64,000 nucleotides of DNA from Thermoplasmata archaeon. GTDB lineage: Archaea; Thermoplasmatota; Thermoplasmata; Lutacidiplasmatales; UBA184. Every line of letters starts with the position of its first letter. The stretch's first letter is position 1. The DNA lies in the NCBI GenBank assembly GCA_021796385.1, contig JAJYXQ010000033.1, forward strand, positions 62,001 to 126,000. The letters are read 5' to 3'. Below, piece by piece: positions 9,922 through 52,333 of this stretch. A program made the position numbers and the translations under genes. Below the pieces are notes generated by a model that worked only from the letters and a program-made list of their open reading frames with translations, searched no databases and was not told where the DNA came from.

Positions 9922-12309
9922 TCATCGCCGAGGGACGGTCCCGCAATAGGGGCAGAACCCCCATTGGGGAGGGAAGGTACGGTGACATGCCCCACAGACG
10001 AGCATCGTGGGGGGGTACCCAGCCGGAGGGAGCGGGGGGGGAGGTCCGCCCGTTGGAGCGGGAGGGTAGTAGTATCCCGGGCTCGCGGGGGGTGGTGGAG
10101 CAATGGGGACCTGCCTTGGTTTGCGCGTGCCGGCAATCAACGCGATCACGACGATGATCACGACGATCGCAAGGATGAGATAGAATACGGAGAATGGGAG
10201 GGGGGACTTCTGGGATGGAGCGGGAGGTGGTTGTCCCCCGGTCGGGGGGACGCCTGTCGCCACCCCGGGCGTGGCACTCGGATTGTACACATAGGAAGTA
10301 TACGTGGGATTGCCGAGGTCCGTTGCCAGTCGGGCGGCATTCACGCTACCCCACCCCGTGAGCGCATCCCATCCGGCTGAGGCGTTGAAGAGGTAGTTGG
10401 ACCCCGAGGTGACCGGGGTGAACGGACCGGTGCCTCCGTTCTCAAGGAAGTAGCTCGACATGTTGTAGATCGCCGGATCAAGGAATCCGAGCGGATGGCC
10501 GATGTCCTGGGAGAGCACGGCGACGAGGCCCGCCATGAGCGGGGAGGATATCGACGTGCCCTCGAAAACCCCCATGCTGACGAGATAGCCTCCCGATTGG
10601 GCCTGCGCAGCCGAGAACGCAATGGTATCGAAGGCGCACAGGGCGATGTCCGGGACCGCCCGGGAGGCGTTCGTTCCCTCGATGGATGCGGTGTACTTGA
10701 TGGCGGACTGGGCGGCCGACCGCGCCTGCCAGATCGGCTCGTTCACGTACGGGCTGATGCCTCCCTCCGTGCCACCATAGTTGGCGACCGTGGAACTGGG
10801 GCTGAACCAAGCTGTGGTGGATGACACCCCCGTGATGTTACCGGCATCATACCCGGGGGTCGGGATCACGTTCCCCTGCGGGTTCCATGGGGTCCCCGTC
10901 GGGGTGCCGCTCACCCTCACCTCGGTCCCGCCGACCGCCACGACCCCATAATCATCAAAGGCCGCTGTGGCCGGGAAGCCGGGCCACTGCCCCTGGGGGT
11001 GCCCTTGCAAGTTCGAGGGAGCGTTCCCCTGGTCCCCGGACGAAGCGAGCAATGTGACCTCCATCGCCTGGGCTTGGACCTCCAGATGGTCCCAGCCCGC
11101 ATCGTTCATGTCGGGAAGTCCCCAAGAGTTGGACACCGCGGCCAGCCGGTCGGGGCCGTAGTTGTAGTTGAGGGCGTCGGCAAGGGCCACATCGAAGGCC
11201 GCATACCCCCCGCCCAGGGTCTGGGAGATCAGGCTTCCGGCAAAGTAGAAGTTGTACAGGGCCGCACCGGGAGCCAAGCTCCCGGCCATCTCGAGGTCCA
11301 GCGAGTTTTCATCGACCGATCCGATGTCATCCCCAAGCGTCCCAACGCCGGTCACATTCGGTGGGGGCCCGGGATTCGGAGGGATCGTGCCGTTGACCGT
11401 CACGGGTACTCCAATGGGTTGGGGAGGGGTCGAACCCTGAGGGAAGGTAAGGTTGTAGTACAGGCTCACGGCCGCCGGGTCGTAGGGGGGAAGGTTCCGG
11501 TTCATCGTTTGGTTGTACCCAGACGTGAGGAGCGTAGCTACGGCGTAACCACTGCCACTTAGCCCTTGATTGAGAAGGGGGATTTCGTCGTACACCGCCC
11601 GGAAGTCGGTACCCCAAAATATCTGGTCGGTGGTTCCCTGGACCGTGTCAAACTGTCCTAGGGAGCTTGCCCGTCCGGTGGAGATCGCATACTTCCCGGA
11701 CGCTAGAGCGGCGGGCAGGTGAAGCCCGGGAGAGGAAGCGTCCGATAGGCCGCTGATCCCAGCGACCATACCAAGAAGGGGGGTCGGCAATGTGGGTGCT
11801 CCTGTTTCACCATAGTAAAGATACGAACCGGGGCTTGAGTACCATGCAAGTGAGGTGTGGAACACCCGTTCGACCGCGCTCTCGGGGAGGTCCACCCACA
11901 GGATATCCCCACCGCCCGCATTGGTCACGGAGGTAGCACCATGGCTTAGGAAGAACGCCCGAACGTCGGCTCGTTCCGAGGGGCTGGGCGCAAACTCCTT
12001 TCCGAACTGGGCCGCGGTCAGCCCCACTCCATACTCCGGAGAGGAGGGGTCACGCTGAGCACGAAGGAACGCCCTTAGCTCGGGAAGGTGGGAGTACTGC
12101 AAGGCGATGGCCAGTCCTACGGGGTGATTGGGCACCATCTCCACCACCAGCCGGGAACCGGGGACCACCCCGTTCGAACCGAAGACGGAGGAAGCGACCG
12201 ACGCGGAGGTCTCGGGATGGCCATTCCAGACCGGCGTTGCGGAAAGCCCTGGCAGGAGCAATACCAAGGCCGTGATGGCGCCCGCTAGCACAAAGGAAGC
12301 GCGATGCAC
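9922..12309 (-). CDS. Membrane-anchored S53 (sedolisin/kumamolisin) peptidase with C-terminal zinc ribbon
   Basis: 795 residues. A signal peptide (residues 1-25) is followed by an inhibitory pro-domain at about 50-190 and a subtilisin-like S53 catalytic domain. The Glu/Asp pair is in DENSLDLE, the oxyanion Asp in ASSGDQGN, and the catalytic Ser in EGTSISSPLMAG at about residue 586. Sedolisins are acid-active endo- and tripeptidyl-peptidases, so an acidic habitat is likely. After the protease come a linker, one membrane helix (YLILAIVVIIVVIALIAG), a Pro/Tyr-rich cytosolic segment and a zinc ribbon with C772, C775, C786 and C789. The cytosolic zinc ribbon on a secreted protease is unusual. Leaderless GTG start, 22-31 nt from cttcaaagcg, which it seems to share with the divergent HIT gene. 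Confidence 0.88.
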   Translation of the reverse strand: MHRASFVLAGAITALVLLLPGLSATPVWNGHPETSASVASSVFGSNGVVPGSRLVVEMVPNHPVGLAIALQYSHLPELRAFLRAQRDPSSPEYGVGLTAAQFGKEFAPSPSERADVRAFFLSHGATSVTNAGGGDILWVDLPESAVERVFHTSLAWYSSPGSYLYYGETGAPTLPTPLLGMVAGISGLSDASSPGLHLPAALASGKYAISTGRASSLGQFDTVQGTTDQIFWGTDFRAVYDEIPLLNQGLSGSGYAVATLLTSGYNQTMNRNLPPYDPAAVSLYYNLTFPQGSTPPQPIGVPVTVNGTIPPNPGPPPNVTGVGTLGDDIGSVDENSLDLEMAGSLAPGAALYNFYFAGSLISQTLGGGYAAFDVALADALNYNYGPDRLAAVSNSWGLPDMNDAGWDHLEVQAQAMEVTLLASSGDQGNAPSNLQGHPQGQWPGFPATAAFDDYGVVAVGGTEVRVSGTPTGTPWNPQGNVIPTPGYDAGNITGVSSTTAWFSPSSTVANYGGTEGGISPYVNEPIWQARSAAQSAIKYTASIEGTNASRAVPDIALCAFDTIAFSAAQAQSGGYLVSMGVFEGTSISSPLMAGLVAVLSQDIGHPLGFLDPAIYNMSSYFLENGGTGPFTPVTSGSNYLFNASAGWDALTGWGSVNAARLATDLGNPTYTSYVYNPSATPGVATGVPPTGGQPPPAPSQKSPLPFSVFYLILAIVVIIVVIALIAGTRKPRQVPIAPPPPASPGYYYPPAPTGGPPPPLPPAGYPPTMLVCGACHRTFPPQWGFCPYCGTVPRR

Positions 12310-42043: not shown

Positions 42044-45000
42044 TCACGGGGAAGGAGGTGGGAAGTACGGAGGCGGGCCGGCTTCGATGGGGGGCTGGGG
42101 AGGGACCTTGTTCCGACGCCGACGCAGGCTCCGGAACAGGAACACCGCGGCGACGAGCACCAGAATGCCGGCAGCCACGATACCCCAGAAGAGCGGCGTC
42201 TCATAGACCGGGGGAGCATAGGAGATCGATGAGGGCGCGACCGTGATCGTGGCCGGGGCCGCCGCCATGGTCTGCCCGTTCAAGGTGGCGTTGAGGTACA
42301 CGAGCGCTGTCCCTACGTCGATACCGGCGGAGAACGTCACTTCGGGAGAAGTAGTGTTGTTGAGGTATCCTTCGTTCCCCCGGACCGACCAAGAGTACCG
42401 CAGGGACGTTCCGCAGGGGACGTTCCCGCAGGCGACCGTGGAACGAAGGTCGACCCACTGACCCGGCACGAGCGCAAATCGTATCGGGGAGATCTGGACG
42501 GAAGAGAGCTGCGGAACGGTCACGAAGATCATGGGTGGTGGCTGGGCCGCCACGGTCACCCCGTCGAGGGTCACGTTGAGGTAGATGCTCACCGTACCCG
42601 GAGTCAGACCGGCGGTGAATAGCGCCGAGCCGTTGCCAACGGGTTGGATCCGTCCGAGGGTGTTGCTGAGCGTCCAATTGTACGTGGCGCCCCCCGGGCA
42701 TGGACCGGGAGTGCATCCGAGCGTGGTGTTGAACCACTGCGTCGACCCCACTGCGACGTACACGGCGAACGGTACCGCGGTCACCGTGGTCAGGATCGGA
42801 CCGTTCCCTGGGATGACGTCGAGCGTGATGTTCGTGGAGCGGGCCTGCGTGCCGAAACTGTCGTTGACCTCGACGAACGCATGGAACACCCCGGGCGTAG
42901 CATAGGTGTGCGTAGGGTCCTCGAGCGTGCTGGTCCCTCCATCCCCGAAGCTCCAATGGAACTGGGAGTAGTTCCCCGATCCCCCAATGGGATGGGCGAC
43001 GAACCCAACGACCAAGGGGGTCCGGCCCGAGGTCACGTTGGCCGTGGCCGTTACCGAAAGGGGCGGGGTCGCCGAGATAACGAGGACACGGGATGTCGTT
43101 CGGAGCCCGTCGCTGTCGGTGACCGTGAGGTTGACGGGATACGTTCCCGGCGTGGTGAAGGTGAACGGGGTCGAGGGGCCGGGAATGAACGTGCCATTTC
43201 CCAGGGACCAGAGGTAGCCAGGATAGACTCCCGAGCCTCCCGAGACCTGGGAGGAGAAGGAGGCCGAAAGGGGTGCCACCCCGCCGGTGCGGTTTGCGGA
43301 CACGTTGACGCGGAGGGGAGGGAGAGGGGTGTCGAGATAGGTAAGCGTCCCCGAGACCTGGTCGCTGACGAAGCTCAAGCTGGCGTTCCCATCGGTTGCC
43401 ACCCCATCGGGCTGGTCTCCGACCGAAAGGTTCCCTAGGAGGGTCTGGTTCGGCGCGGACAGGACCGAAACCGAGTTGGATGCGCCCCCGGCGATGTAGA
43501 GGTCCTGCGTGGCCCGGTCGAGGGCAATGGCACCGGGGAACCCTCCCACGGGGATCGACCCGACGGGTCGGAACGCGCTATCGGAGAGCACTGTGACGTT
43601 GCCCGCGCCGGCGTTGGTCACGAAGATGCGGCCCAAGGTGCTGTCGCAAGCGACGCCCGTCGGCGATGCGCCCACCGGGATTTCCCGATAGATCGTGGTG
43701 CCCCGGGGGTCGAGCACGGTCACGTTGTTGGTCGAACTGACGGCGACGAAGAGGAGCCCATCCCCGGGATCGTAGCATATCCCCATGGGGCCGCCGGGAA
43801 CGCGCCCAGAGCCGTTCAGGAGGTCCGTGGTCGTGTTAAGGGCGGTCACATTGTCCGAGTTGACATCGGCGATGAAGAGGCGCTGGTCCTGCGGGTCGTA
43901 GGCCATCGCTCCGGGCGAACCGCTCACCGGGATCGTCGCCGTCACAAAATTGGTTCGGGGGTCGATCTGGGAGACCGCATTGGACCCGCTATCGCTGACG
44001 TAGATATCCCCTGAAGCCCCGGCCACGGCGATGGACTGGGGGCTGCTTCCCACCGGGACCCTTCCGATCACCGAGGCGTTCTGGGCCGAGACGACCCACA
44101 CCACATTGGCGGCGGTATCCGCCACGTAGAGGTTTCCCGTGTTCGGGTCGAAGGTGGCCCCGGTGGGGAGCGAATTGACGGGCAAGGTTTCGAGCGCGTC
44201 GCCGGCCGATCCCGACAGCACGGTGAGCGAGGTCCCCGAGACGTTTCCCACGTAGACTTCGGCGTTCTCCGGATCAAAGCTGATGTTCCCGGGAGTTCCT
44301 CCGATGGTGATGGTGCCGACCGTGGTCCCCGTCACACCGGACAGCACGTAGATGGCCCTTGCGAGCGCGCAGCTGACGAACACGGCGCCATCGCTCGTGT
44401 CGACGGCCAGGGAAACCGGGTCCGAACCGACGGGGAGGTCCAGGGTCACTTGCCCGGTCGTCGGGGAGACGATCGAGAGGTTCGAGGACCGGGCGTTCGC
44501 CGCATAGAGGTCGCCGTCTTCGCCGTCATAGGCGAGGCTCACGGGCCCCGACCCAACCGGGATGCTCCGGAAGGGACGGACCGATGCGGAAGAGACCTCG
44601 GTGAGGTTGTCGGAGAGGTAGTTTGCCACGAATATCTCCCGGAGCGGGGCATCCACCGCGAGGGCGTCCGGGCCGGACCCCACCGGGATGCTCCCCAGAA
44701 TCTTGTCGGTTGCTCCGGAGATCAGGCTCAGGTTCGCCGATCCGTAGTTTGCGACCACGATGTCCCCGCTCGCGGGATCGAAGGCCAGGGCATCCGGTTC
44801 GGAGCCCACGGACACGTTCGCCACGGCCCGGAGCGGTGTTCCGGCGAGTACGGTCACGGTTCCCGTTCCCCGTCCGGTGACGTAAACGTGACCGGTGACG
44901 GGATCAAGGGTGACGGCGGTAGGGGAATAGGGAAAGGTGATGGAGTACCGCACGATGTTCGCCGGTCCGGACAGAACGTCGAGGGCATCCGAGGTCGGGT

Positions 45001-46270
45001 CGACGACCAGGACCTCCCCGGTCAGGGGGTCGGCAACCGATTCTGAGGGGGCTTGGAAGCCCGGGACCCGGGCGAGAACCGTGTTCGGTAAAGTTCGGGG
45101 GAGGGTGCTATTGCTCGTTAGGATGGAGATGACATTGGCGGAATAGTCCGCGACATAGACCGCCCCGTCGTTGTTGTTGACCCCGAGCCCCTCAGGGCCA
45201 AGGCCCACCGAGATGTTCGCAAGGACCGTTCGGGTGGTACCGTTGATCACGGTGACGTTGTTGGCGGCATGGTCGCTGACGTAGAGGTCCCCCGAGAGCG
45301 GGTTGAACGCCACGTCCCAGGGAGTTCGTCCCACGGGGATCGTCCCGATGATACTTGCCGAGGCGGGAGCGATGACCGTGACATTGTTCGATGACGAATC
45401 AGTGACGAAGAGCTCGTTCAGGATCGGGTCGTAGCTGACGGCGGTCGGCCCTCCGGGGACGGGGATCGAGCCCGTGACAGTGTTGGTGGTCGTGTTGATG
45501 ATGGAGAGGTTATTGGAGACGAAGTTCGCCACGTAGATGTCCCGGTCCGAGGGATCGAATATCCCTCCCTCCGGTCGCGACCCCGTTGCGATCGAGGCGA
45601 TGATCTGGTGAGTGCTTCCGGAGATGACGGAGATGTTTCCGGAGACGTCGTTCGTCACGTACACGTTTCCCGAGACGGGATCGATGATGGGGTCGTACGG
45701 ATCGCCCCCGGCTCCCACGCTTGCGACGACCCGGTTCGTGAAGGTGGAGACGATGGAGACGTTGTTCGAGGCACCGTTGGTCACGAAGAGCTCCTGATCG
45801 ACCGGGTCGTACCCCGCCTCGTTCGGGGTGACCCCGACATCGAGGTTGGTGACGACGGAGTTCGTCACAGCGGAAATCACCAAGACCGAGTCTTCTGGCG
45901 GAAAGGGAGAGATCGTGGTGCAGGGCACATAGACATCATCGCTCGAATTGGCAAAAGCGACGGCGGTCGGTTCCATACAGTTGTAGGTGTTGTTGAGGTT
46001 GCCCGGGACGAAGCTTCCGCTTTGGAGACGCAGGGTGCCGTTCACGGACGCGGTGACGGCACGTCCATTCGACTTCGGGTGCCTGAGCGGGCCATGGGAG
46101 GACACCGTGGTCGAAGGGATCACCAAGGGTGCGGTAGCGTGGGAGGCAAGACCGCTGCTCACGCCTGCTCCGACATTCAGCGGAGCCGATAGAGCGAGGA
46201 GGACCAAGGACAGGAGCACAAGCTTCGGAGCGCTGCCGATGTGGCGGAACGGGCTCCCTGCCCTATCCAT
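42044..46270 (-). CDS. Giant surface protein: 21-blade YVTN/YncE-like propeller, PKD domains, anchor
   Basis: 1408 residues from the ATG at 46270. Signal peptide (KLVLLSLVLLALSAPLNVGAG), then about 21 repeats of roughly 42 residues with the signature DxxxxxLYVxNxxxNNVSVI and SIPVGxxPxxVAYDP (nt about 46000-43330). Twenty-one blades would make three seven-bladed propellers. Two PKD domains follow (VNLTVTDSDGLRTTSR; FHWSFGDGGTSTLEDPTHTY), two Ig-like segments, a membrane helix (LFWGIVAAGILVLVAAVFLF), a basic stop RSLRRRRNK and a Pro-rich end. NxS/T sites are frequent. Probably an S-layer-associated or adhesion protein. An alternative upstream start to 46606 includes Arg-rich sequence and is rejected. 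Confidence 0.85.
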   Translation of the reverse strand: MDRAGSPFRHIGSAPKLVLLSLVLLALSAPLNVGAGVSSGLASHATAPLVIPSTTVSSHGPLRHPKSNGRAVTASVNGTLRLQSGSFVPGNLNNTYNCMEPTAVAFANSSDDVYVPCTTISPFPPEDSVLVISAVTNSVVTNLDVGVTPNEAGYDPVDQELFVTNGASNNVSIVSTFTNRVVASVGAGGDPYDPIIDPVSGNVYVTNDVSGNISVISGSTHQIIASIATGSRPEGGIFDPSDRDIYVANFVSNNLSIINTTTNTVTGSIPVPGGPTAVSYDPILNELFVTDSSSNNVTVIAPASASIIGTIPVGRTPWDVAFNPLSGDLYVSDHAANNVTVINGTTRTVLANISVGLGPEGLGVNNNDGAVYVADYSANVISILTSNSTLPRTLPNTVLARVPGFQAPSESVADPLTGEVLVVDPTSDALDVLSGPANIVRYSITFPYSPTAVTLDPVTGHVYVTGRGTGTVTVLAGTPLRAVANVSVGSEPDALAFDPASGDIVVANYGSANLSLISGATDKILGSIPVGSGPDALAVDAPLREIFVANYLSDNLTEVSSASVRPFRSIPVGSGPVSLAYDGEDGDLYAANARSSNLSIVSPTTGQVTLDLPVGSDPVSLAVDTSDGAVFVSCALARAIYVLSGVTGTTVGTITIGGTPGNISFDPENAEVYVGNVSGTSLTVLSGSAGDALETLPVNSLPTGATFDPNTGNLYVADTAANVVWVVSAQNASVIGRVPVGSSPQSIAVAGASGDIYVSDSGSNAVSQIDPRTNFVTATIPVSGSPGAMAYDPQDQRLFIADVNSDNVTALNTTTDLLNGSGRVPGGPMGICYDPGDGLLFVAVSSTNNVTVLDPRGTTIYREIPVGASPTGVACDSTLGRIFVTNAGAGNVTVLSDSAFRPVGSIPVGGFPGAIALDRATQDLYIAGGASNSVSVLSAPNQTLLGNLSVGDQPDGVATDGNASLSFVSDQVSGTLTYLDTPLPPLRVNVSANRTGGVAPLSASFSSQVSGGSGVYPGYLWSLGNGTFIPGPSTPFTFTTPGTYPVNLTVTDSDGLRTTSRVLVISATPPLSVTATANVTSGRTPLVVGFVAHPIGGSGNYSQFHWSFGDGGTSTLEDPTHTYATPGVFHAFVEVNDSFGTQARSTNITLDVIPGNGPILTTVTAVPFAVYVAVGSTQWFNTTLGCTPGPCPGGATYNWTLSNTLGRIQPVGNGSALFTAGLTPGTVSIYLNVTLDGVTVAAQPPPMIFVTVPQLSSVQISPIRFALVPGQWVDLRSTVACGNVPCGTSLRYSWSVRGNEGYLNNTTSPEVTFSAGIDVGTALVYLNATLNGQTMAAAPATITVAPSSISYAPPVYETPLFWGIVAAGILVLVAAVFLFRSLRRRRNKVPPQPPIEAGPPPYFPPPSP

Positions 46271-46295
46271 GCACACGAGAGAGCGGGCTGTGGGG

Positions 46296-46305
46296 AAAAG
46301 CTTAC
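46296..46305 (-). promoter_or_regulatory. TATA-like box of the propeller gene
   Basis: On the minus strand the sequence reads gtaagctttt, centred about 30 nt before the ATG at 46270. It supports that start. Confidence 0.4.
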
Positions 46306-46464
46306 CGCCCGATCCCGCGCACAATGTCGTGCGAGGGGTGGCCATCTTCGGTGGAGTCGATATCCTCTTCGGGTGACATAAGCAGATTGTGGTCGCATAG
46401 CGAAGGACCGTCGCACCGACCGAGGGTCCATTGCCTTTTTGTGGTCCATAGCCTAGGGGAGACC

Positions 46465-46566
46465 ATGCACGAAGAGGGCGAGGGAGGACAGGAGGCCGAG
46501 CGGGGTCGAACCTCTCGGCCAACGATCCAATCTCCGGTCGTCCTGTGCAAAGTGGGGTGGGGATGA
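46465..46566 (+). CDS. Possible 33-codon upstream ORF
   Basis: ATG at 46465 lies about 27 nt after a ctttttgtgg box and opens 33 codons (MHEEGEGGQE start). They end in TGA overlapping the next gene's ATG at 46563 (ATGA). The arms ggccgag and ctcggcc (46494-46521) form an inverted repeat inside it. It could be a small coupled peptide or just a leader. Confidence 0.25.
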   Translation: MHEEGEGGQEAERGRTSRPTIQSPVVLCKVGWG

Positions 46567-47231
46567 TGGCCAGTCCGACCCAATGCCCGTACTGTGGCCA
46601 ATTCATCCGGCCCGGGTCCTCCCAGTGTGGTTACTGTGGTCAGTTCTTGGGCCCCCAGTTCGAAGGACCCTCCCAAGGATACCCAAGCCCCGGGGCGGGA
46701 TATCCCCCCCAGTACGGTTACGCCCCCGGACCCGGTCCGTACGCCGGCTATCCCCCGGCCCAAGGAGGTGCTCCACCAGGGTACGGTTCTCCGGGCCCCT
46801 CCCCTCCTGCCAAGAAGAAGAGCCGATGGGTCGTCGGGGTGGTGCTTGCCGTGGTGGTCGTGGTCGTCCTCATGGTCGTGCTCTTGGCGGTCCCCTTTTC
46901 GAAGGGCTCGGCCACCCAGAACATCTCCTGCTATACCGCGGGTTCCTCCGGGAGCCCCTTGTATTACAATCAGACCCTCTCATCGGGTACTGTCACCGTG
47001 AGCTGGACCTCGAGCGGTGCCAAGGCCGTGGTCGTGATCGGGGAAGGCTACGGATCTTCAGCGGTGGTGGTCTACCAAAGTGCGAGCGCGTCCAATCCTT
47101 CGGGCTGGACGACTTCGGGATCCGGGACCTTCTCGAGCCCGGGGAACAACTTCGTGGCCGCGTGCGTGGCCGATACCACCGTCTCGACGACGGTCAGCAT
47201 CACGTTCTCGACCTCAGGCCCCTTGCTCTAG
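46563..47231 (+). CDS. Zinc ribbon - Pro/Tyr/Gly-rich linker - membrane helix - extracellular domain
   Basis: 222 residues from the ATG at 46563 (a GTG at 46545 would add six). N-terminal cytosolic zinc ribbon CPYCGQFI to CGYCGQFL, a linker of PGPGPYAGYPPAQGG type, a basic stretch KKKSR, and one long membrane helix (WVVGVVLAVVVVVVLMVVLLAVPF). A Ser/Gly/Thr-rich beta domain of about 100 residues outside contains two cysteines. It is the same arrangement as the S53 peptidase tail but in the opposite order. Function unknown; the divergent partner is the giant propeller protein. Confidence 0.7.
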   Translation: MMASPTQCPYCGQFIRPGSSQCGYCGQFLGPQFEGPSQGYPSPGAGYPPQYGYAPGPGPYAGYPPAQGGAPPGYGSPGPSPPAKKKSRWVVGVVLAVVVVVVLMVVLLAVPFSKGSATQNISCYTAGSSGSPLYYNQTLSSGTVTVSWTSSGAKAVVVIGEGYGSSAVVVYQSASASNPSGWTTSGSGTFSSPGNNFVAACVADTTVSTTVSITFSTSGPLL

Positions 47232-48386: not shown

Positions 48387-49661
48387 TCATCCCGCAGGGG
48401 ACGCGGGGTGCAGGGAATAACGGGGGTCGGGTCGGCCTTGCTGGTAGTACGAGAGCACCGCTCCGACGTACCGCGGCTCTTCGGCGGCCTTCTTCCTCGC
48501 CACCGGTCCGCGTGGGGAACGCCGCAGGAAGACCGCATAGAGGTTGCCGACGAAGAGGGCCAGGAAAGGGGCGACCGCACTCAAGGGCTGCCACCCGGGC
48601 AGTTCGTTGATGATGAGCGGGAGGAAGACCGCCGACACGGCGACGAGGATCGAGAAGATGATGATCTGCCGGTGGCCCCCGGGCGATGTCCTCGGCTCAG
48701 GGACCATGAAGAGACCGTAGAAGAGGATGTAAGGAGAGAGGATGACATTCACGAATGCGTACTCGGTGAGCAGCGGAACCCGCCCGAATGCCAGAGGAGC
48801 GATCAGGGACAGCGGGATCTCGATCAAGAAGAAGTAGAACGGGATCCTCCAAGCGCCGCGCTGGCGAAGGATGAGGAGGAGGCCGAAGGCGACCATGAGG
48901 TACTCTGGCCATGTGAGCGGGATGCCGACGTTCCACGGGACCGTCATCGCATTGCCCCAGAGGAGGTATGCGATCGTGAGCCCCACCGCGGTGGGGTTGA
49001 GCCACGGTCGGCCGTTCTGGCGGAAGATGTGCCGGATCAGCACGGTGGCCAACGTGACGGCGGCAAGCTCGATGGTGAAGGCAGGAGGTTCGAGCAGGAC
49101 ACCAAGGAACATGGCCATGGCGAGCGATGCATCGGGGATGCGCAACCGCTTGAACCGGGTCGCCTGGGCGACCAGGTCGGAAACGACCGCCAGGGCTGCG
49201 ATGCCGAGGATGGCCCCCGTGCTCGACGCCGATCCGAATCCCCCGAGGACGTAGATGAGGATGCCAAGGAAGATCCATACGAGCCGCACGGGCGGGACGT
49301 ACGAGAGGAACCGCCGGTACGCCTTTTGGAGCTTGCCCGGTGGCTTGCGCGGGGCCGTCGGCTTCGCCAGGGATGGTCGGGACGCTTTCGGTGCCCCTCC
49401 TGAGATGATCGGGCCACCTTGCATCATCCCCTGGGCCCAGACGACAAGGCAGTTCCAGCAGTGTCCCTGGGGATCCAAGGGAGAAAGGCACCACGGGCAC
49501 CGAGGCGTATGGACCCCGGGATGGGTCGGGGGGGGAGGCAGCGCCTCGATCGCCGCGGCGGTGGTACGCTCCCAGACCACTTGGCAAGTGAAGCAGATGA
49601 GGGTGGACGTCAGGGCGCCGCCACACTGGGGGCAGTACTGGAGTTCCTCTTGGGCGCTCAT
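48387..49661 (-). CDS. RnfD/NqrB-like membrane protein with two N-terminal zinc ribbons
   Basis: 424 residues. Residues 1-80 hold two zinc ribbons: CPQCG with CFTC, then CPWC with CWNC. A basic Pro-rich linker leads to about eight helices similar to RnfD/NqrB: RIPDASLAMAMFLGVLLEPP, then RQNGRPWLNPTAVGLTIAYL and FVNVILSPYILFYGLFMVPEP. In Rnf and Nqr complexes these subunits carry covalent FMN on an SGAT-type Thr; I do not see a clear copy of that motif. No other Rnf gene is near. A solitary flavin-binding or electron-transfer membrane protein with a cytosolic zinc module is the best description. Confidence 0.7.
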   Translation of the reverse strand: MSAQEELQYCPQCGGALTSTLICFTCQVVWERTTAAAIEALPPPPTHPGVHTPRCPWCLSPLDPQGHCWNCLVVWAQGMMQGGPIISGGAPKASRPSLAKPTAPRKPPGKLQKAYRRFLSYVPPVRLVWIFLGILIYVLGGFGSASSTGAILGIAALAVVSDLVAQATRFKRLRIPDASLAMAMFLGVLLEPPAFTIELAAVTLATVLIRHIFRQNGRPWLNPTAVGLTIAYLLWGNAMTVPWNVGIPLTWPEYLMVAFGLLLILRQRGAWRIPFYFFLIEIPLSLIAPLAFGRVPLLTEYAFVNVILSPYILFYGLFMVPEPRTSPGGHRQIIIFSILVAVSAVFLPLIINELPGWQPLSAVAPFLALFVGNLYAVFLRRSPRGPVARKKAAEEPRYVGAVLSYYQQGRPDPRYSLHPASPAG

Positions 49662-49730: not shown

Positions 49731-52109
49731 TCAGTTCTGAGGAGGCTCGGGAGTATTGGAAGGAGCTGTGGACCGCCCTCCCTTGGGTGTCGCCTTCCCG
49801 GGAGGGACCTTTCCTTTGGGTGGGCTTTTCACATGCGGGCCGGTGACGAGGAGGTAGAGCAAACCGAGCGAGAGGAAGAAGATGAGGGCCAGGGCATCGG
49901 TCACGGGGTCACCTACGCCGTTACCAAGCACAGAGGGCGTTTGCGCGACCGTGCTGGCGCTCGGACCCCCCGATCCCGGGGGAGCGGAAACGTTCACCCG
50001 GATGGTGGCGGAAACCCACAGCCCCCGGAGGTCGGTTGTTCGGGCGGTGACGAGGTAGGATCCCGGGTGGAGATACGTGGTGCTGGTCGTGAAGGGAGCG
50101 GTGGTGTTCACCCCATTGCCGAAGCTCCATTGGGCCTTCGAGCCGTTGATGTCGGAACCCGACCCTGGGACGAGGACGAAGGTGGCATTGGTCGGTGCGT
50201 AGCTGGAGGTCGTGTTGATCATGATGGTCGCGGTGTCTTCGGGCTGGACCTGGACCTGCGTGGAGTTCGAGGCGGAAGCTCCTGCAGTATCACTGACCGT
50301 GGCGGTCACGGTGAAGGTTCCCACGCTGGAGACGGGATAGGTGTGGTTCACTGCGGTCCCCGTGCTCGTGGTACCGTCTCCCCACGACCAATGGACCTGG
50401 GAGAAGTGCGAATTACCTCCAAAGACGGATGCGGAGGCATTGACCATGAAGGGAGCATCTCCGGACGTTGCGTTCAGGGACACGAGCAGCGTCAACGGGG
50501 CGGCCCCTGCGACCGTGACGGTCGTCGAGTTCTTGGCCGTGTGGCCCGCCGAATCGGTCACGGTGACGTTGAGCGTGAACGTTCCGGGCGTGGTAAAGGT
50601 GTGTGTGACGGTGGAGCCCGTGCCGGTGGAACCGTCCCCGAAGGTCCAGGACACGGTCGAGTAAATCCCCGAGCCTCCCTGGATGGATGCGTACGCGGTG
50701 ATCGGAAGGGGCGCGGAACCGCCCGAGGCGTTGGTCGTGGCGACCACGGACAAGGGGGCAGACGCTCCCCCGGTCACATTCACATAAGCGGTGGTCGTCC
50801 CGATACGCCCTGTCGCATCGGTCACGGTGACAGATGCCCGGTAGCTTCCGGCGACGGAATAGGTGTGCGTGGCCGTGAGCCCGCTCCCGCTTGAGCCATC
50901 CCCGAACTGCCAGGTCGCCGTGTAGGGAGAAGTTCCACCGCTGGGTGTCGCCGTAAGGGTGACGGCGAGAGGAGCGGAACCCGAGCTAGGTTGGGCCGAA
51001 GCCGTCACAGGTAGGGGTGGCAAAGAGGCGACCACAGAGATGGGGGTCGACTTGGTGGCCTTCGTTCCGGAAGAATCCGTGACCGTGAGCGTGGCAGAGT
51101 AATTCCCTACCGAAGCATATGTGTGCGTTACCGATGTCCCGCTACCCGTCGACCCGTCGCCGAAGCTCCAGCTGTAGTTGTAGGGAGCGACACCACCGGA
51201 GGCGCTACCGGTAAAGGACACTTTGAGGGGTGCCGTGCCGGAAGTGGGTTGCGCCGTCACGGAGGCGCTCAGGGAGGCCGGGGCGCTAGCCGTTATCTGG
51301 ACCCGAGCGGTCGAACTCGCTCCGGTCGAATCGGTGACGGTCAGGACCGCCGTGTAGGAGCCGGCGACCGTGTAGGTGTGGCTCGGGTTCTGGGTCGTGG
51401 ATGCGGGGCTCCCATCTCCGAAGTTCCACGAATAGGTGTAGGGAGAACTTCCGCCGCTCGCAGACCCGGTGAAGGAGACGGTGAGCGGGACCGAACCCGA
51501 AGTGGGTGAGCCGGAAGCCACGGCCTGGGGAGGCGGAGCCACCACGTTCACGATGTTGAATCTCTGGCTGGAGTGGCCCGGTCCGCAATAGATCGTGCAG
51601 TAGATCTCATTCCCGCTCGATGGGGAACTGGGGGCCACGAAGGACCCACTCGCCCAAGAACCTACCGGGGCCGCCAAGTACAGGAGCCCACTCGAACCGA
51701 TGTACACCCCCACGCCATGCTGGTTCGTGCCCCCGACGCTCGCGTCGGGTGGAAGGCTCGTTGCATTCACATTGACGGTGTATCCCTCAAAGAGGTTCCA
51801 TGCGTTCGATTCGTTCGCCCCGGTCACGGTGTCGGTGATGTAGAACGCATAATCGCTGGCCGTGATGTTGAACCATTGGGTACCCGTGGCGGCGGGGGTC
51901 GCGGGGGGGCCGAGCCATCCGCCCGGGCACCCCACGGCTCCCGGGAGGGCGCAGCGGAGCTCCGCCGGGGCGAACGAGCCGTACCCGGAGAACACCACTA
52001 CGGAGGCGAGGGCCCAGATGGCAAACGAGCGGGGGGGAAAAGGAACTAGGGAACGACCGCGGGGTTCGGGGGAGCCGAACTTGCCACGCATCTCTGTTCG
52101 AATCTCCAT
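49731..52109 (-). CDS. CuA-type cupredoxin fused to six PKD domains, membrane anchored
   Basis: 792 residues from ATG 52109, with cgaggag just before it. Signal anchor (FAIWALASVVVFSGYGS), then a cupredoxin domain at about 75-190. H131 lies in NQHGVGVYI and C171, C175, H179 and Q182 in YCTIYCGPGHSSQ, the C-x3-C-x3-H-x2-M spacing of the CuA site in oxidase subunit II, with Gln for Met. Six PKD domains follow (nt about 51530-49990; WNFGDGS, WSFGDGS, WQFGDGS and so on), a membrane helix (LALIFFLSLGLLYLLVTG) and a basic Pro/Lys tail. CuA normally docks with subunit I of an oxidase; here it is held out on a stalk. It may receive electrons at the cell surface. Confidence 0.78.
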   Translation of the reverse strand: MEIRTEMRGKFGSPEPRGRSLVPFPPRSFAIWALASVVVFSGYGSFAPAELRCALPGAVGCPGGWLGPPATPAATGTQWFNITASDYAFYITDTVTGANESNAWNLFEGYTVNVNATSLPPDASVGGTNQHGVGVYIGSSGLLYLAAPVGSWASGSFVAPSSPSSGNEIYCTIYCGPGHSSQRFNIVNVVAPPPQAVASGSPTSGSVPLTVSFTGSASGGSSPYTYSWNFGDGSPASTTQNPSHTYTVAGSYTAVLTVTDSTGASSTARVQITASAPASLSASVTAQPTSGTAPLKVSFTGSASGGVAPYNYSWSFGDGSTGSGTSVTHTYASVGNYSATLTVTDSSGTKATKSTPISVVASLPPLPVTASAQPSSGSAPLAVTLTATPSGGTSPYTATWQFGDGSSGSGLTATHTYSVAGSYRASVTVTDATGRIGTTTAYVNVTGGASAPLSVVATTNASGGSAPLPITAYASIQGGSGIYSTVSWTFGDGSTGTGSTVTHTFTTPGTFTLNVTVTDSAGHTAKNSTTVTVAGAAPLTLLVSLNATSGDAPFMVNASASVFGGNSHFSQVHWSWGDGTTSTGTAVNHTYPVSSVGTFTVTATVSDTAGASASNSTQVQVQPEDTATIMINTTSSYAPTNATFVLVPGSGSDINGSKAQWSFGNGVNTTAPFTTSTTYLHPGSYLVTARTTDLRGLWVSATIRVNVSAPPGSGGPSASTVAQTPSVLGNGVGDPVTDALALIFFLSLGLLYLLVTGPHVKSPPKGKVPPGKATPKGGRSTAPSNTPEPPQN

Positions 52110-52164
52110 GCTCCTCGACGTGTGGGCGCTTGCCCCGTTGTAGCACAGCACTGACACCTACCGA

Positions 52165-52258: not shown

Positions 52259-52333
52259 GGGGCTGTGGGGTAGCTTGGTCCATCCTTCTAGCTTGGGGTG
52301 CTAGAGACTCCGATTCAAATTCGGACAGCCCCA
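52259..52333 (+). tRNA. tRNA-Pro (anticodon GGG)
   Basis: Acceptor arms GGGGCTG (52259-52265) and CAGCCCC (52326-52332) pair fully; the discriminator is A52333. The anticodon stem CTAGC/GCTAG encloses the loop TTGGGGT, so the anticodon is GGG at 52295-52297 with G37, as in proline tRNAs. The T arm is TCCGA, TTCAAAT, TCGGA. No CCA is encoded and no intron is needed. It reads codon CCC, common in this GC-rich genome. Confidence 0.93.

Follow-up and report, generated by a model that had tools for sequence, protein, structure and literature searches.

Does an archaeal surface protein carry the CuA copper site of the respiratory enzymes, and if so, what would it do there? The question arises from a stretch of 64,000 nucleotides of a Thermoplasmata archaeon (the window, meaning the whole stretch of DNA that was analysed), for which the first-pass annotation had proposed a protein anchored in the membrane, with a CuA-type cupredoxin domain and a PKD stalk. 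The gene, which we call CuA-PKD, lies on the minus strand, and its location in that annotation matches the ORF 49731-52157. We number the ligand and Cys-pair residues from the ATG at 52109 and the hydrophobic segments from the GTG. The fold, ligand conservation, architecture, operon and family range described below were computed. The protein has the following parts:

49731..52157, minus strand: CuA-PKD protein, 808 aa; GTG at 52157, alternative ATG at 52109
51969..52025, minus strand: N-terminal hydrophobic segment (signal peptide or signal anchor), residues 45-63 in GTG numbering, from hydropathy
51918..51956, minus strand: Cys-x7-Cys (RCALPGAVGCPGG), Cys53 and Cys61 in ATG numbering, conserved in 27/27 members of the family
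51537..51905, minus strand: CuA-type cupredoxin domain with H131, C171, C175, H179 and axial Q182 (ATG numbering)
49953..51536, minus strand: stalk of six PKD domains (Pfam PF18911 and PF00801, six stretches each); outer limits approximate
49839..49895, minus strand: C-terminal transmembrane helix, residues 755-773 of 808 (GTG numbering), from hydropathy

The first-pass annotation had read six PKD domains and a C-terminal anchor with no subunit II hairpin, and both Pfam, with its six stretches (PF18911 at 1.5e-79 and PF00801 at 3.8e-59), and the hydropathy profile agree. The C-terminal helix is followed by a basic, Pro-rich tail and recurs at the equivalent place in the other complete CuA-PKD members, and a hydrophobic segment near the N-terminus is found in most members of the family. 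The Cys-x7-Cys pair, which sits between this segment and the cupredoxin domain, was counted in 26 members by regular expression and in L055 by eye (RCGLPGSVGCSGG), and Cys53 and Cys61 probably form a disulfide. Judged from the sequence, the PKD domains and the C-terminal helix most likely tether the CuA domain to the cell surface. The domain may stand at the tip of the stalk, depending on cleavage of the N-terminal segment, and the sequence is compatible with both outcomes: cleavage would leave the CuA domain at the free end, while an uncleaved segment would anchor both ends and keep the copper domain in proximity to the membrane and to the RnfD-like partner described below. A tRNA-Pro(GGG) gene (window 52259-52333, plus strand) lies directly upstream of the CuA-PKD gene and is divergent from it.

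The identity of the domain rests on its fold and its ligands. A structure prediction, which the first-pass annotation had proposed as a check, gave no misfold: AlphaFold with the family alignment returned a cupredoxin fold with a pLDDT of 91.2 and a pTM of 0.85. Compared with the PDB by Foldseek, the model matches subunit II of the caa3 (2yev), aa3 and bo3 oxidases, the T. thermophilus CuA domain (2cua) and the CuA domains of nitrous-oxide reductase (N2OR; 5i5m, 2iwf, 1fwx), with a probability of 1.00 against the CoxB and N2OR domains; the top matches also include copper nitrite reductases with an extra cupredoxin domain. The PDB relatives were found by fold comparison only, since neither plain-sequence nor profile searches of PDB sequences with the CuA domain returned any. 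Pfam gave no match to COX2 (PF00116) or another cupredoxin family in the protein up to E = 1, and NCBIfam gave none for the CuA domain alone. When profiles of the domain and of CoxB-type proteins from the same archaea are compared, the ligands align (E 2.8e-9). The His + Cys-x3-Cys-x3-His ligand set is present in the window domain, with His131, Cys171, Cys175 and His179 at exactly the positions and CuA spacing first reported. We conclude that the domain is a divergent relative of the CuA domain of oxidase subunit II. By sequence and model it most likely holds a two-copper CuA centre, in which Cys171 and Cys175 would bridge the two coppers, His131 and His179 would be the end ligands, and Gln182, replaced by Met in paralogues, a weak axial ligand.

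We searched 106 genomes of the same order for relatives of the 123-aa domain. CuA-PKD genes number 27, counting all copies, and all belong to one archaeal family (Lutacidiplasmatales), acidophiles of soils and mines. Their aligned domains are 45-89% identical to the window domain, and 24 of the 125 alignment columns are invariant at a mean column identity of 64%. The His/Cys/Cys/His ligands are invariant in 26 of the 27 members, so that the CuA ligand set is not a matter of chance; this includes Cys171, Cys175 and His179, whose conservation had been singled out for checking. The exception, L060, has Arg in place of the first Cys and has lost the PKD stalk.

The axial position departs from the C-x3-C-x3-H-x2-M pattern: the window protein lacks the Met and has Gln182 instead. 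The first-pass annotation had named this residue correctly and had presented it as a departure, yet it is no oddity of the window protein, Gln being the norm (Gln in 20 members, Met in 6, Leu in 1). By parsimony the axial residue changed 4-5 times, at least 2 of these changes being forced by well-supported branches. The distribution of the axial residue and its changes on the tree thus make Gln an established state of the family. The window genome itself carries a Gln copy (in the window) and a Met paralogue (G000:C41). In engineered CuA proteins with Gln in place of the axial Met, the dinuclear centre is kept and the potential is shifted; no paper on such mutants was found in the open-access literature. 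Because the axial ligand is a weak one, the Gln seen in the sequence would lower the case for a canonical CuA and leave intact the case for a domain that works like CuA.

In the tree a branch with support of 100/99 sets the CuA-PKD proteins apart from the CoxB-type proteins. When 300 genomes of the class and 390 of the phylum were sampled, strong matches came from the one archaeal family alone. A scan by pattern across 84,980 species genomes yielded, beyond the CuA-PKD members, only distant matches, among them the small stand-alone bacterial proteins described below; viral contigs gave no relative. CuA-PKD fusions in other archaea, which had been suggested as a search target, therefore exist and are restricted to this family. 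The family is missing from the majority of the 106 genomes sampled in the order and is therefore not essential. The named records with CuA-PKD are mostly Thermoplasmata MAGs, several of them SubAcS genomes, which define Ca. Lutacidiplasmatales (PMC9287336). The habitats of this group include mine drainage among other acidic settings, and the main text of the paper describing it makes no mention of PKD, Rnf or iron (PMC9287336).

How does CuA-PKD compare with known CuA proteins? It shares with oxidase subunit II (CoxB, PF00116) the cupredoxin fold, the H + C-x3-C-x3-H ligand order and profile homology. Unlike CoxB, it has no Pfam COX2 match, has an axial Gln and a PKD stalk and is not encoded beside coxA; in place of a transmembrane hairpin it has one N-terminal hydrophobic segment and, after the six PKD domains, a C-terminal helix. 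The CuA domain of nitrous-oxide reductase (NosZ) has the same fold and ligand set, whereas CuA-PKD lacks the CuZ beta-propeller and has only PKD-type domains after the cupredoxin. That CuA is otherwise found only in these two enzymes, as the first-pass annotation implied, is too strong. PmoD forms a homodimeric CuA site (PMC6189053), and PmoD/AmoD (PMC6189053) resemble CuA-PKD as predicted here: the CuA site belongs to neither oxidase nor N2OR, and the cupredoxin that carries it is extracytoplasmic and anchored in the membrane, with a helix at its C-terminus. The PmoD site lies between two monomers and uses a Cx7MxHxnC motif (PMC6189053), whereas the CuA-PKD motif is the canonical intramolecular one. 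Small stand-alone CuA-like proteins also occur in bacteria, in a Peribacteria MAG (L091 5905-6327) and a PVC-group MAG (L092 3868-4242). These are single secreted domains with H and C-x3-C-x3-H-x2-M, and differ from CuA-PKD in having no PKD stalk, an axial Met and only 31-38% identity. CuA-PKD is a known domain in a new architecture.

The genes that accompany CuA-PKD bear on its role:

48387..49661, minus strand: RnfD/NqrB-like membrane protein with N-terminal zinc ribbons, 424 aa; assigned by PF03116, Foldseek and adjacency
L055 11324-12173, L059 11177-12026 and L061 4732-5614, each read along the strand of its CuA-PKD gene: GCxxCxP membrane protein, about 283 aa

The RnfD/NqrB-like gene lies 69 bp downstream of CuA-PKD on the same strand. 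It follows CuA-PKD in 19 of 23 untruncated loci, leaving out loci cut by a contig end and allowing one intervening membrane gene, and in one further locus (L060 8914-10380) a degenerate CuA domain is fused in frame to an RnfD-like membrane core; L060 may be a decayed or rearranged copy, or a misassembly. In many loci the gap from CuA-PKD to the next gene is 7-69 bp or there is a 4-bp overlap, which suggests translational coupling as far as gene spacing can indicate. The loci L039-L041, which form one paralogue clade, have no RnfD-like neighbour; their CuA-PKD genes adjoin a gene for a beta-propeller surface protein instead. A protein resembling these neighbours is encoded in the window at 42044-46606 (minus strand), a surface protein of 1520 aa that combines YNCE/NHL beta-propeller repeats with PKD domains and carries a C-terminal helix. 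In several genomes the membrane protein of about 283 aa, which has a conserved GCxxCxP and belongs to no Pfam family, is encoded between CuA-PKD and the RnfD-like gene. It may bear a weak likeness to the protein encoded after CoxB (L001 1740-2570): pairwise BLAST gave an E-value of 3.6e-6 at best, and hhalign did not support the match (probability 1.3%).

The partner scores 35.8 bits against PF03116, for a cut-off of 27.7, and 2.1e-5 against the RnfD model of NCBIfam, which is below the cut-off of that model. Its structure model (pLDDT 73) finds RnfD and NqrB as best Foldseek matches, followed by urea channels. It thus resembles RnfD/NqrB by Pfam and by fold and differs in its N-terminal zinc ribbons and in having no ApbE motif: the ApbE flavinylation motif was found in the membrane part of none of the 17 aligned partner members, and the 92% complete genome yielded no ApbE and no FMN_bind (RnfG/NqrC) domain that could be its counterpart. 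The covalent FMN usual in Rnf/Nqr is therefore probably missing from the partner as judged by motif; at 92% completeness the genomic absences are not proof. A place for the RnfD-like protein within a full Rnf complex is unsupported, no FMN_bind or ApbE having been found. The N-terminal zinc ribbon has four invariant Cys and is probably cytosolic; its spacing rules out a rubredoxin and, by inference, reads as a short zinc ribbon. Such ribbons are a common tag in the window genome (for example window 46545-47231 and 9922-12309). Many genomes without CuA-PKD encode a second RnfD-like paralogue (L118 = G000:C59; L119-L130), whose C-terminal extension is strongly conserved and ends in EDFGYAEFNGDDYAVSGC or a similar sequence.

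The first-pass annotation had proposed that a surface CuA may carry electrons across the S-layer or sense copper, and both are candidate roles. The conserved RnfD/NqrB-like neighbour, as a matter of gene order, would favour a redox role over sensing. In Rnf and Nqr, RnfD/NqrB have a covalently bound FMN on the outer side and a riboflavin on the inner side, and pass electrons through the membrane (PMC12174285), and bacterial NqrB/RnfD-like systems outside full Rnf/Nqr are thought to feed extracytosolic FMN-binding domains (PMC8238504). We tentatively propose, at a little under an even chance, that CuA-PKD is a membrane-anchored extracytoplasmic CuA electron-transfer protein working with the RnfD/NqrB-like partner. 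Copper binding, the redox role and contact between the two proteins are what we infer, as are the direction of electron flow and any flavin in the partner. The CuA domain would exchange electrons with the co-encoded membrane protein, which would link it to the electron pool of the membrane or the cytoplasm; the outer place that belongs to RnfG/NqrC in Rnf/Nqr would, by analogy, fall to the CuA domain. This analogy is weakened by the missing ApbE motif and by the failure to find ApbE or FMN_bind. The electron-transfer proposal gains from the invariant ligands, from their alignment with those of oxidase subunits II, from the confident model and its PDB matches, from the recurring neighbour gene, from the aerobic chain of the organism and from the fact that the partner's structural relatives, RnfD and NqrB, are flavin-carrying membrane electron-transfer subunits, and loses from the closeness of the partner fold to urea channels, from the L039-L041 loci that lack an RnfD-like neighbour and from the absence of the family from most sampled genomes.

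One alternative explanation is copper handling: the CuA-like domain would capture or deliver copper outside the cell as a sensor, store or chaperone, and the RnfD-like protein would be a permease or a partner that signals through its cytosolic zinc ribbons. The relation of the partner fold to urea/ammonium channels, its urea-channel matches in Foldseek, its lack of a covalent FMN motif and the four invariant Cys of its zinc ribbon all fit this explanation, as do the extra GCxxCxP membrane protein within the operon at some loci and the mine-drainage habitats of the order (PMC9287336). No SCO1 copper-insertion protein was found in the 92% complete genome, though CoxB has a CuA site, so another route of copper insertion into CuA would be needed. 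The ligand set, however, is that of an electron-transfer CuA and not a Met/His-rich or single-copper chaperone motif, the commonness of zinc ribbons in the window genome takes weight from the ribbon, and the partner matches RnfD/NqrB best, in structure as in sequence; we consider copper handling rather unlikely. A cupredoxin that keeps its ligands and serves as an adhesive or structural surface head with no redox job is improbable. PKD architecture is typical of surface adhesion proteins and the axial residue varies between Gln, Met and Leu, but the four metal ligands are invariant against the 64% mean column identity and the conserved membrane partner gene is not an adhesin.

It is also conceivable that the CuA domain carries electrons from Rieske/cytochrome b to the terminal oxidase as a stalked substitute for a soluble blue copper protein. 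The contig of CuA-PKD also carries TatC, Rieske, cytochrome b and heme o synthase, and the genome search gave no match to plastocyanin (PF00127). The aerobic chain of the organism, however, comprises CoxA, CoxB, Rieske, cytochrome b and sulfocyanins, with two sulfocyanin (SoxE) matches in the genome, one of them fused to CoxA. Because CoxA with a sulfocyanin domain, CoxB, Rieske and cytochrome b are all present, CuA-PKD is not needed as a standard carrier. Cytochrome b lies about 9 kb from CuA-PKD with a large surface-protein gene between, respiratory genes are not found beside family members elsewhere and many genomes of the order do without CuA-PKD, all of which makes the substitute role quite improbable. 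The fused oxidase, CoxA with an N-terminal SoxE domain, is one protein of 1036 aa (L132 6612-9722, plus strand; G000:C50). The coxA gene is on another contig than CuA-PKD, and the separate 2-helix CoxB encoded beside it rules out CuA-PKD as oxidase subunit II itself.

Returning to electron transfer with the RnfD/NqrB-like partner, a bolder version that we regard as decidedly unlikely is a two-part archaeal transmembrane conduit, in which the stalked CuA replaces RnfG/NqrC beside the RnfD/NqrB-like subunit and electrons pass between the membrane and extracellular acceptors or donors such as the iron of acid mine water. The sequences suggest that CuA-PKD and its partner may be a hitherto undescribed redox device on the surface of these archaea. 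Textbooks place CuA centres in the respiration of oxygen and of nitrous oxide, and a conserved surface family with an RnfD/NqrB-like partner would extend where CuA works. The switch between Gln and Met within the family would supply natural axial-ligand variants for study, and CuA-PKD would offer a concrete case in which redox traffic at the surface of acidophilic archaea can be tested.
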